From Aureimonas sp. ME7 (GTDB taxonomy: Bacteria; Pseudomonadota; Alphaproteobacteria; Rhizobiales; Rhizobiaceae): a stretch of 64,000 nucleotides of DNA. Positions 60,386 to 62,986 of the stretch are shown in pieces (positions within the stretch are counted from its first letter, which is position 1; each line of letters begins with the position of its first letter). The notes beneath the pieces are model-generated. The model had not been told where the DNA came from and ran no database searches. It saw only the letters and a list, made by a program, of their open reading frames with translations. Both the position numbers and the translations under genes were made by a program. The stretch spans positions 248,001-312,000 of the forward strand of contig NZ_CAJCKW010000003.1 in the NCBI RefSeq assembly GCF_903970965.1, read 5' to 3'.

Positions 60386-60443
60386 GCCCAGGGCGACGCA
60401 TCGCGTCTTCCCCGTCGCGCCACTCGCTCGTGGCTTACAAGAA

Positions 60444-60478
60444 GCCCTCCGGTGCTCCCCGTGCCGGAGGGCGTTTCG
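60444..60478 (+). terminator. terminator of the flagellin gene
   Basis: Stem GCCCTCCGG / CCGGAGGGC with an 11-base loop, followed by GTTTCGTT. Confidence 0.7.
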
Positions 60479-60697
60479 TTGCGCAAAGCTGAACGCCGGC
60501 CACCCAGCGCCACCGATCGTTCACGATGCCAAGCGACTGTTTTCGTTCATCATGTCTAGCATCGGATCGTTCACCCGCATCCCGCATTCTCATCCTCACA
60601 AGGCCGAAACAATCGGTCGATCGAGCGGGCAGAACCGTTCAGCAGGGTGCGTATCGTCGGCGGCAAGGTCGCTCTTTCCAGCGGGATCTCGAAAACC

Positions 60698-60781
60698 ATG
60701 AACGACAATCGGACCATCTCCCTTCCCGCCCTCCCGCGCCCGAGCGAAGCGGCGCAGAAGGTTCTTTCCCTCTTCCGTTGA
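60698..60781 (+). CDS. possible 27-aa small protein
   Basis: An ATG at 60698 opens 27 codons (MNDNRTISLPALPRPSEAAQ...) and ends at a TGA. There is no strong ribosome site and no known family. It precedes the DUF1127 gene by about 160 bp on the same strand. It is listed because small genes are common next to DUF1127 units, but it may be chance. Confidence 0.2.
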   Translation: MNDNRTISLPALPRPSEAAQKVLSLFR

Positions 60782-60877
60782 CAAGCGCGTGATGCGCTCC
60801 AGGACCCTCCCGCCATGCGCAGGGCTCCCATGCGGTCTTTGCGCTAGTGAGGGATGGGGCGTCCGGGTACATCTCTC

Positions 60878-60918
60878 CTCGTCGAAACGAAACAAACAGC
60901 GCAGCTTCCATCGACGAG
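60878..60918 (+). repeat. inverted repeat in the leader of the DUF1127 gene
   Basis: CTCGTCGA (60878-60885) and TCGACGAG (60911-60918), 8 bp perfect, 25 bp apart and 25 bp upstream of the ATG. It could form a leader hairpin or be a regulator site. Confidence 0.4.
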
Positions 60919-60943
60919 AAGCGCGACCCGAAAGGACAAGACC

Positions 60944-61087
60944 ATGGGCATCGCACGTTCCTTCCAGACCTGGCGCCAGTATCGCAACACGGTCAGCGAG
61001 CTGAACCGCCTGTCGCATCGCGAGCTCGCCGATCTCGGCATCTCGCGTTCGGAAATCCCGGCTCTCGCCCGTCAGGCGATCCGCTAA
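60944..61087 (+). CDS. DUF1127 (YjiS-like) mini-protein
   Basis: A 47-aa Arg-rich protein: MGIARSFQTWRQYRNTVSELNRLSHRELADLGIS..., a clean DUF1127 match. It has an AAAGGA site. In Rhodobacter such a protein (CcaF1) is encoded just upstream of, and co-transcribed with, small RNAs of the CcsR/cuckoo group and is an RNA-binding protein. Three CU-loop hairpins follow this gene in the same order. No domain besides DUF1127 is present. Confidence 0.88.
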   Translation: MGIARSFQTWRQYRNTVSELNRLSHRELADLGISRSEIPALARQAIR

Positions 61088-61096
61088 CGCATCATC

Positions 61097-61210
61097 GGTT
61101 TCGCGACGGCCATTCTCCTCCCAAAGGCCGAAGCGGATTTAGCCTGCGATCCTCCTCCCACGCAGGCTAGTCTCGACGCCCCACCGGTCCTCCCCCGGTG
61201 GGGCGTTTTC
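61097..61210 (+). ncRNA. DUF1127-linked cuckoo/CcsR-type small RNA (three CU-loop hairpins)
   Basis: Three tandem hairpins downstream of the DUF1127 stop. First: stem CGGCC/GGCCG (61107-61111, 61126-61130), loop with CTCCTCCC. Second: stem AGCCTGCG/CGCAGGCT (61141-61148, 61161-61168), loop with CCTCCTCCC. Third: 12-bp stem (61176-61187, 61195-61206), loop TCCTCCC, then TTTTC, which acts as the terminator. CCUCC is the anti-Shine-Dalgarno sequence, and such loops define the CcsR/alpha-r14 'cuckoo' family as I recall it. It is probably processed from the DUF1127 transcript. Loop copies may bind ribosome sites of target mRNAs or a sequestering partner. Confidence 0.75.
61176..61210 (+). terminator. 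terminator of the DUF1127/small RNA unit
   Basis: The third hairpin (12-bp perfect stem, loop TCCTCCC) followed by TTTTC forms an intrinsic terminator. It ends transcription before the next GGDEF-EAL gene. Confidence 0.85.
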
Positions 61211-61291
61211 GTATGTCGGACTTATTTTCATGATCGAACCAACGATTCGATAAGAATCGCGCGATAAGCTTCCGCCATCGCGGAGGTTCCT

Positions 61292-62986
61292 GTGACCAAG
61301 AAGACCATTGCCCCCGATCTCATGTATCGCCTCCTGGTTCAGGGGGTGAAGGACTATGCCATCTATCTTCTCGGCGCCGATGGCACGGTGCTGAACTGGA
61401 ACGCCGGGGCCGAACGGGCCAAGGGATACAAGGCCGACGAGATCGTCGGGCTGAATTACGAATGCTTCTACTCGCCCGACGACCGGGCCAAGGGCATCCC
61501 CAGGCGCAACCTCGACCTCGCCTTGCGCAACGGGCATCTGACCACGGAAGGCTGGCGCCTTCGCAAGGACGGCACGGCCTTCTGGGCGCGCGTCGCGCTC
61601 GACGCGATCTACGACGAGGACGGGACGTTCGTCGGCTTCGCGAAGGTCACTCGCGACCTGACCGAGCAGCGCGCCAGCGAGCAGCGCTTCCAGCATCAGG
61701 CGCGGCACGACGCGCTGACGGGACTGCCGAACCGCGACGGCCTGATCGAGTGTCTGGAACTCGAACTTCCGCAGATCGCCTACGGCTCCCCCATCGCCGT
61801 GCATCACGTCGATCTCGATCGGTTCAAGCCGATCAACGACATCTATGGCCATCAGGTGGGCGACCAGGTGCTCCAGGAAGTGGCGAAGCGCCTCTTCGCC
61901 GTGGCGGGTGCGTCCTGCGTGGTGGGCCGGCTGGGCGGCGACGAGTTCGCCGTGCTTCAGTTCGGCGCGCCCGGTTCGGGCAGCATGGCGGCGATGGCCA
62001 AATCGATCGTCGAAGCGCTTTCCGTTCCGATTGCGGTCGGTCCTCGGCTGCTGGAGATCGGGGCCAGCGTCGGCGTCGCCTGCGCGCCCGGCGACGCCAC
62101 GGATCTGAACGAACTCCTGCGCTGTGCCGATCTGGCGCTGCACACCGCGAAGGAAAACGGGCGCAACGGTTTCCGCTTCTACGAGGCGGCGATGGGCGAA
62201 ACCAAGCTCGCCCGCCGCCTGATGGAACTCAAGCTTCGGCACGCCGTCGCGGCGAAGGACTTCGTTCTCGCCTACCAGCCGATCGTCAACGGGCAGAGCA
62301 ACAGGACGGTGGGGTTCGAGGCGCTGCTGCGTTGGACCGACCAGACGGGCCAGCCGATCTCGCCCGCCCTCTTCGTGCCGATCGCCGAGGAGATGGGGCT
62401 GATGCCGGAACTGGGCGAATGGGTCCTGCGCACGGCCTGCGCGCAGGCGACGGCTTGGCCGGACGACGTCACCGTGGCGGTGAACCTGTCGCCGACGCAA
62501 CTCAACGACCCCCTTCTCTTCGACCTCGTCGCCCAAGTGCTTCGCGAAACCGGGCTGCCGGCCCGCCGACTGGAACTCGAGATCACCGAAACCGCGATCC
62601 TGGCCAATCTCGGGGCGGCGCGCGAAACGTTGAAGCGCCTTCGCGGCCTTGGCATCAGCATCGCGCTGGACGATTTCGGCACGGGCTTCTCATCGCTCTC
62701 GCTCGTGCGCGAGCTTCCCCTGACCCGCATCAAGATCGACCGCAGCTTCGTGTCCGACATCGACGGCGGCTCGCGGACCACGGCGGTGATCGAATCAGTG
62801 GTCGCGCTGTGTCGCGGCTATGGCCTGAAGACCACCGCCGAGGGCATCGAAACAGACGGACAGCGGCTCGGCGTCATGATGAGCGGTTGCAGCGACCTCC
62901 AGGGCTATCTCCTCGGGCGACCCCAGCCCGCCTCCCAGATCGAGTGGCCGGGAACGACATCTGTCGCCGCTTCCATCGAGGCCTGA
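61292..62986 (+). CDS. PAS-GGDEF-EAL c-di-GMP protein
   Basis: A 564-aa protein. A PAS/PAC region (about 10-130; DYAIYLLGADGTVLNWNAGAERAKGY, WRLRKDGTAFWARV) precedes the GGDEF domain (about 140-300; GGDEF at 215-219 intact) and the EAL domain (about 315-560; EAL at 343-345, DDFGTGFSSLSLV). All key motifs look intact. It starts with GTG at 61292 after GGAGG. It is a second full-length two-domain enzyme 5 kb from the first; the PAS ligand is unknown. Confidence 0.93.
   Translation: MTKKTIAPDLMYRLLVQGVKDYAIYLLGADGTVLNWNAGAERAKGYKADEIVGLNYECFYSPDDRAKGIPRRNLDLALRNGHLTTEGWRLRKDGTAFWARVALDAIYDEDGTFVGFAKVTRDLTEQRASEQRFQHQARHDALTGLPNRDGLIECLELELPQIAYGSPIAVHHVDLDRFKPINDIYGHQVGDQVLQEVAKRLFAVAGASCVVGRLGGDEFAVLQFGAPGSGSMAAMAKSIVEALSVPIAVGPRLLEIGASVGVACAPGDATDLNELLRCADLALHTAKENGRNGFRFYEAAMGETKLARRLMELKLRHAVAAKDFVLAYQPIVNGQSNRTVGFEALLRWTDQTGQPISPALFVPIAEEMGLMPELGEWVLRTACAQATAWPDDVTVAVNLSPTQLNDPLLFDLVAQVLRETGLPARRLELEITETAILANLGAARETLKRLRGLGISIALDDFGTGFSSLSLVRELPLTRIKIDRSFVSDIDGGSRTTAVIESVVALCRGYGLKTTAEGIETDGQRLGVMMSGCSDLQGYLLGRPQPASQIEWPGTTSVAASIEA

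Follow-up and report, generated by a model that had tools for sequence, protein, structure and literature searches.

A DUF1127 gene followed by three CU-loop hairpins

The stretch of 64,000 nucleotides that was analysed (hereafter the window) carries a short gene for a DUF1127 protein, and shortly behind its stop codon lie three predicted hairpins with CU loops that together match the alpha-r14 family of small RNAs. The features are as follows:

60819–60833, + strand: GCA-N9-TGC box GCAGGGCTCCCATGC, like the VtlR/LsrB (LysR-type) binding motif; exact match to a post hoc pattern
60867–60874, + strand: possible −10 region, placed by eye in alignment with TATGTT/TATATT-like stretches of relatives
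60944–61087, + strand: DUF1127 small protein gene, 47 aa; open reading frame, PF06568 at 55 bits (cut-off 23.3)
61096–61210, + strand: alpha-r14 (ar14) small RNA, full-length match; RF02344 at 71.4 bits (gathering cut-off 58.8), model positions 1–123 of 123
61100–61137, + strand: hairpin 1, loop 61112–61125 with CTCCTCCC at 61115–61122; predicted fold
61139–61170, + strand: hairpin 2, loop 61149–61160 with CCTCCTCCC at 61151–61159; predicted fold
61175–61207, + strand: hairpin 3, terminator-like, loop 61188–61194 TCCTCCC, then GTTTTC; predicted fold and terminator scan

The preliminary description of this DNA had named a DUF1127 gene followed by three CU-loop hairpins, and both the PF06568 match and the predicted folds bear this out. 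Gene and hairpins were placed correctly there, but the conserved unit starts earlier than 60944, at about 60819. Folding of 61088–61216 gives −59.7 kcal/mol as compared to a mean of −39.6 kcal/mol for shuffled sequences (z −5.74), and none of 200 shuffles is as good. When the hairpins are folded singly, 1, 0 and 0 of 200 shuffles equal hairpins 1, 2 and 3, respectively. A terminator scan of both strands of 60386–61300 marked three terminator-like sites against 0.8 expected; hairpin 3 is one of them, in agreement with the earlier view of the last hairpin as a terminator. The loop motifs are likewise present in all three loops, although the third contains only seven of the nine motif bases. It is important to note that the motif CTCCTCCC is not enriched in the window, where it occurs twice, both times at the locus, against a chance expectation of 4.0. 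What is above chance is that the motif occupies three neighbouring loops, together with the match to the covariance model.

Assignment to the alpha-r14 family

The alpha-r14 match has an E-value of 7e-11 for the whole window, and no other Rfam match within the 64 kb attains gathering level. The RNA had been proposed to be of the cuckoo/CcsR type, with ar14 and CcsR as the models to be run on it. The score of 71.4 bits against 58.8 confirms alpha-r14; CcsR membership fails, since CcsR1 (RF02791) reaches 26.6 bits and needs 65.3. 6C (RF01066) is excluded as well (28.6 bits, 47 needed), and the remaining Rfam families all stay under their cut-offs.

Members of the alpha-r14 family are described as three hairpins, each with an unpaired CCUCCUCCC and with highly different stems (PMC10746234, PMC7143759), and a matching three-hairpin description exists for SmelA075 (PMC3927594). 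The predicted folds of the window RNA have the same characters, i.e. three hairpins, an anti-Shine-Dalgarno (anti-SD) motif unpaired in each loop and variable stems. Compared with the loop motif in print, CCUCCUCCC, loop 3 of the window (TCCTCCC) is shorter. The three distinct stems cannot serve as the point of difference for which they had been taken, as they are part of the published alpha-r14 description and also the shape of the Rfam model. More specifically, the window RNA resembles alpha-r14/NfeR1 (Smr14C2, RF02344) in its three hairpins with CU (anti-SD) loops, its length of about 115–123 nt, the position of the third hairpin at the 3′ end and the presence of several copies per genome. 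It differs in that the published NfeR1 possesses a separate sigma-70 promoter, whereas the window RNA directly follows DUF1127 and has a short third loop motif.

The association of DUF1127 genes with cuckoo RNAs has been termed the CIN1 locus (PMC10253847), and in the window, too, a short DUF1127 gene adjoins a CU-loop RNA. The ccaF1-CcsR1-4 operon of Rhodobacter sphaeroides likewise combines DUF1127, CU-loop RNAs and a terminator (PMC10253847, PMC8625941). However, it contains four CcsR RNAs with two hairpins each, according to the Rfam CcsR1 model, instead of a single three-hairpin alpha-r14, and it is described with an RpoHI/RpoHII promoter (PMC10253847), whereas the window has an LsrB-like box. 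Judged by its sequence, the locus is an ordinary further copy of the known alpha-r14 family, and its arrangement is known too.

Copies in the genome, in the genus and beyond

The genome itself has three alpha-r14 copies over the cut-off, namely in the window, on contig C9 and on contig C12, and two of the three lie directly 3′ of DUF1127. The copy on contig C12 (L195:729-846) has no DUF1127 upstream and a box about 64 nt before the RNA; this solo copy is perhaps the NfeR1 counterpart. A search of the assembly, which is rated 99.91% complete, gave no match to 16S rRNA, perhaps lost in assembly.

At E≤1e-3, alpha-r14 matches were found in 45 of 61 genomes, own included, and in 37 of the 61 they exceed the cut-off. 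Every one of the 21 genomes of the genus, own included, yields between 1 and 10 matches at E≤1e-3. This gives 81 own-genus matches, weak ones included (78 from 20 relatives and the three own). We counted a copy as linked if a DUF1127 open reading frame lies on the same strand at most 700 nt upstream of the RNA, and 50 of the 81 are linked in this sense, the other 31 having no DUF1127 upstream. Of the 50 linked copies, 46 have a spacing of 0–15 nt from the stop codon to the RNA, and in the window 8 nt separate the stop codon from the start of the alpha-r14 model. The other four gaps are 42, 70, 71 and 131 nt. The last is found at L147, where two RNAs follow a single gene in tandem and the more distant one has this gap; the gene was counted twice.

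Three CU-loop hairpins appear in the single folds of 48 of the 50 linked copies and two hairpins in the remaining two. The 31 unlinked copies show three such hairpins in 14 cases, two in 14 and one in three. Loop conservation in relatives had been named as a check on the locus, and the CU loops are indeed kept across the own-genus copies. Stems vary among these copies, and TCCTCCC is loop 3 in nearly all of them. RNAalifold, applied to 38 aligned sequences out of the 81 (37 linked, 1 unlinked), yields 14 consensus pairs in hairpins 1 and 3, and for seven of these both bases of the pair are changed in one or more sequences; for hairpin 1 alone this holds for 5 of 9 consensus pairs. Hairpin 2 is present in single folds and absent from the consensus of the 38 sequences, which we suppose to be because MAFFT misplaces its variable loop.

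Outside the genus we compared 18 loci, of which 13 belong to further genera of the family and 5 to named genomes. Eight have DUF1127 a short way upstream of the RNA (L014, L016, L017, L020, L022, L023, L038, L205) and four have it only downstream (L010, L011, L012, L015); it was not found in five (L013, L025, L202, L203, L206), and at L204 the RNA was not located. Since 31 of the 81 own-genus copies have no DUF1127 and linkage beyond the genus is mixed, the RNA does not require the gene.

Two further observations concern particular groups of copies. Genomes G013 and G019 of the genus have 9 and 10 alpha-r14 matches, of which 7 and 8 are dispersed DUF1127–RNA units (L037 and L163–L168; L032 and L182–L188). 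In these units the distance from stop codon to RNA is mostly 5–8 nt, and 13 of the 15 are without an LsrB-like box. The second group comprises eleven unlinked copies with two similar CU loops and weak alpha-r14 scores (L138, L143, L144, L152, L159, L160, L170–L173, L193). Two such hairpins were folded in nine of them and one in two, and a GCATGGCTGCCATGC-like dyad lies about 15–45 nt upstream of the match in 9 of the 11. These copies may represent a separate two-hairpin RNA of the genus.

Limits of the conserved unit

For the limits of the unit we compared 3.1 kb around the locus with the 81 loci by BLASTN. Among the 40 longest matches, one is the window itself. The left ends of the other 39 range from 4 bases ahead of the box to a point within the DUF1127 gene, and their right ends lie at 61197–61223, that is, in or just past hairpin 3.

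A flagellin gene and a PAS-GGDEF-EAL gene in the neighbourhood had been regarded as distinguishing the locus, which does not hold across the 80 other alpha-r14 loci. In their flanks, mostly 1.5 kb per side, flagellin has no match at E≤1e-5, and a GGDEF/EAL homologue with 34–56% identity is found at six of the 80. The PAS-GGDEF-EAL protein was also compared with named genomes, a set from which very near records may be missing; this gave 80 loci of other groups, with 28–59% identity in the best segments. As they are not conserved, flagellin and PAS-GGDEF-EAL lie outside the conserved unit. The flagellin gene has a terminator-like hairpin of its own at 60444–60472. The approximately 350 bases from this hairpin to the box (60473–60818) contain small open reading frames only.

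The GCA-N9-TGC box and the LsrB-type regulator

A consensus scan found no sigma-70 promoter at the locus. The box pattern, a dyad, was drawn post hoc, after the three own-genome loci had been viewed; 0.03 matches to it are expected in the window. The whole genome of 4.38 Mb contains four matches, three of which lie upstream of the three alpha-r14 loci. The fourth is inside a 430-aa open reading frame on the other strand, which by its motifs we take to be an ABC transporter ATPase.

In a close form of the pattern with at most 2 mismatches, the box is found upstream of 35 of the 50 linked and 25 of the 31 unlinked copies, and downstream of 2 of 50 and 1 of 31, respectively. Its position differs with linkage. 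The 35 linked copies have it 264–399 nt upstream of the RNA and therefore in front of the DUF1127 gene; in the 25 unlinked copies it is 16–110 nt upstream. Fifteen linked loci are without the box at this stringency, 13 of them in G013 and G019. Beyond the genus the box (at most 2 mismatches) is upstream in 8 of 17 located loci, a count that has no control set.

The VtlR motif of Brucella, which is independent of our pattern, is CAATGCAGCCATGCA (PMC12595884). At least 12 of its 15 positions are matched upstream of 15 of the 50 linked and 20 of the 31 unlinked copies, as compared to none of 81 downstream controls. Two results weigh against reliance on this motif. Within 420 nt upstream of the window RNA the best match is 10 of 15 positions, a score attained in 36 of 100 shuffles and hence no better than chance. 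On the opposite strand of the upstream stretches, 12 positions are reached in 12 of 50 linked and 9 of 31 unlinked loci. In linked loci the opposite strand thus matches about as often, so the motif has no clear orientation; note that a dyad would behave likewise. The shared box resembles an LsrB/VtlR-type site and may be bound by such a regulator.

The genome encodes a candidate for the regulator. A LysR-type protein encoded next to trxB aligns along its full length with PDB 9HH1 (454.6 bits), which is the structure of LsrB from A. tumefaciens (PMC11975290). The LsrB-type gene, at L208:3058-3954, stands directly behind trxB within L208:3058-4966. In Brucella, vtlR is described as adjoining a thioredoxin-disulfide reductase gene, and the own LsrB-type gene is likewise beside trxB. 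NfeR1, the alpha-r14 RNA of S. meliloti, is reported to be undetectable without LsrB (PMC10746234), and VtlR, the LsrB homologue in Brucella, to activate three DUF1127 genes (PMC12595884). These Brucella genes resemble the window in having an LsrB-homologous LysR-type regulator and a motif of the same type. However, the sRNA named in the VtlR regulon, as described there, is AbcR2 (PMC12595884), and that of the window is alpha-r14. A search of the genome for AbcR (ar15) gave no match; a control sequence also matched nowhere, so this search is uninformative.

Discussion

We consider it likely that the locus produces a cuckoo-type alpha-r14 RNA that acts in trans and forms the 3′ end of the DUF1127 mRNA, with activation of the LsrB/VtlR type being probable and silencing directed at Shine-Dalgarno regions. 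An LsrB/VtlR-type regulator would probably activate the promoter at the box 60819–60833. The resulting transcript, which we estimate at about 330 nt by counting from the possible −10 region as far as the terminator, would encode the small protein and end in alpha-r14, and transcription would stop at hairpin 3, a predicted intrinsic terminator. The three-hairpin RNA could then act either as part of the intact transcript or after cleavage downstream of the stop codon. Through its CU loops it would base-pair with target mRNAs at their Shine-Dalgarno regions and block their translation.

Four steps are proposed here by analogy with relatives: activation by the regulator, joint transcription of gene and RNA, cutting by RNase E, and silencing through Shine-Dalgarno pairing. 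In the published accounts, NfeR1 pairs at the translation start of ntrB and silences it (PMC10746234), and CcsR is cut by RNase E with the aid of a DUF1127 protein (PMC10253847, PMC8625941). DUF1127 proteins are reported to bind RNA in Rhodobacter and to have protein partners in Agrobacterium and Salmonella (PMC12501420). According to PMC7143759, one of six NfeR1 loci in S. meliloti is reliably visible by northern blot. As only one of the six is so, the copy in the window could be silent.

The strongest alternative is that a separate promoter, located within the DUF1127 gene or at its end, drives alpha-r14 and that linkage is mere neighbourhood. NfeR1 is described with a sigma-70 promoter of its own (PMC10746234), and of the 31 own-genus copies that have no DUF1127, 25 carry the box at 16–110 nt upstream of the RNA. 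On the other hand, in 35 linked copies the box is 264–399 nt away and precedes the DUF1127 gene, the gap between stop codon and RNA is 0–15 nt in 46 of 50, and the scan found no promoter. We regard a separate promoter as unlikely at this locus.

It is much less probable still that the hairpins are just a structured 3′ UTR or terminator that protects the DUF1127 mRNA and has no trans activity. A terminator-like hairpin 3 and an RNA that begins directly after the stop codon would fit such a role. However, the loops are retained in copies whose stems differ, DUF1127 is missing in front of 31 of the 81, and trans action is known for NfeR1 of the same family (PMC10746234). We give equally little credence to a decoy function, in which the CU loops would sequester mRNAs or a protein that binds RNA: three such loops are present, and in R. 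sphaeroides RNA binding is known for CcaF1, a DUF1127 protein (PMC10253847, PMC12501420), but NfeR1 is reported to pair with a specific mRNA (PMC10746234). Finally, a CcsR or 6C family RNA in place of alpha-r14, suggested by the similar loops and the sub-threshold CcsR1 and 6C matches, is extremely improbable given scores of 26.6 bits (cut-off 65.3) and 28.6 bits (cut-off 47) against 71.4 bits (cut-off 58.8) for alpha-r14.

Returning to an LsrB/VtlR-type control of a joint DUF1127–alpha-r14 transcript, we tentatively put forward a wider reading, in which we have less than even confidence. Box, promoter, DUF1127 gene, alpha-r14 and terminator might constitute a self-contained unit, about 400 bp long, with copies at many sites in the genus (7 and 8 linked copies in two genomes). 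One LsrB-type, probably redox-responsive regulator would then drive both a protein and its partner sRNA, and the protein would perhaps mature or chaperone the RNA. We did not find this unit described in the literature that names both LsrB and DUF1127, of which the part covered includes few subscription papers, and we make no claim of priority.

Taken alone, the locus is one more copy of a known RNA family. The box shared by the own copies is a useful hint on their control, and box and unit together are worth a note only. Three published threads, i.e. LsrB and alpha-r14, VtlR and DUF1127, and DUF1127 and cuckoo-type RNAs, may meet in one unit. If they are joined in a single promoter–gene–RNA unit, it becomes testable whether small protein and sRNA act as partners.
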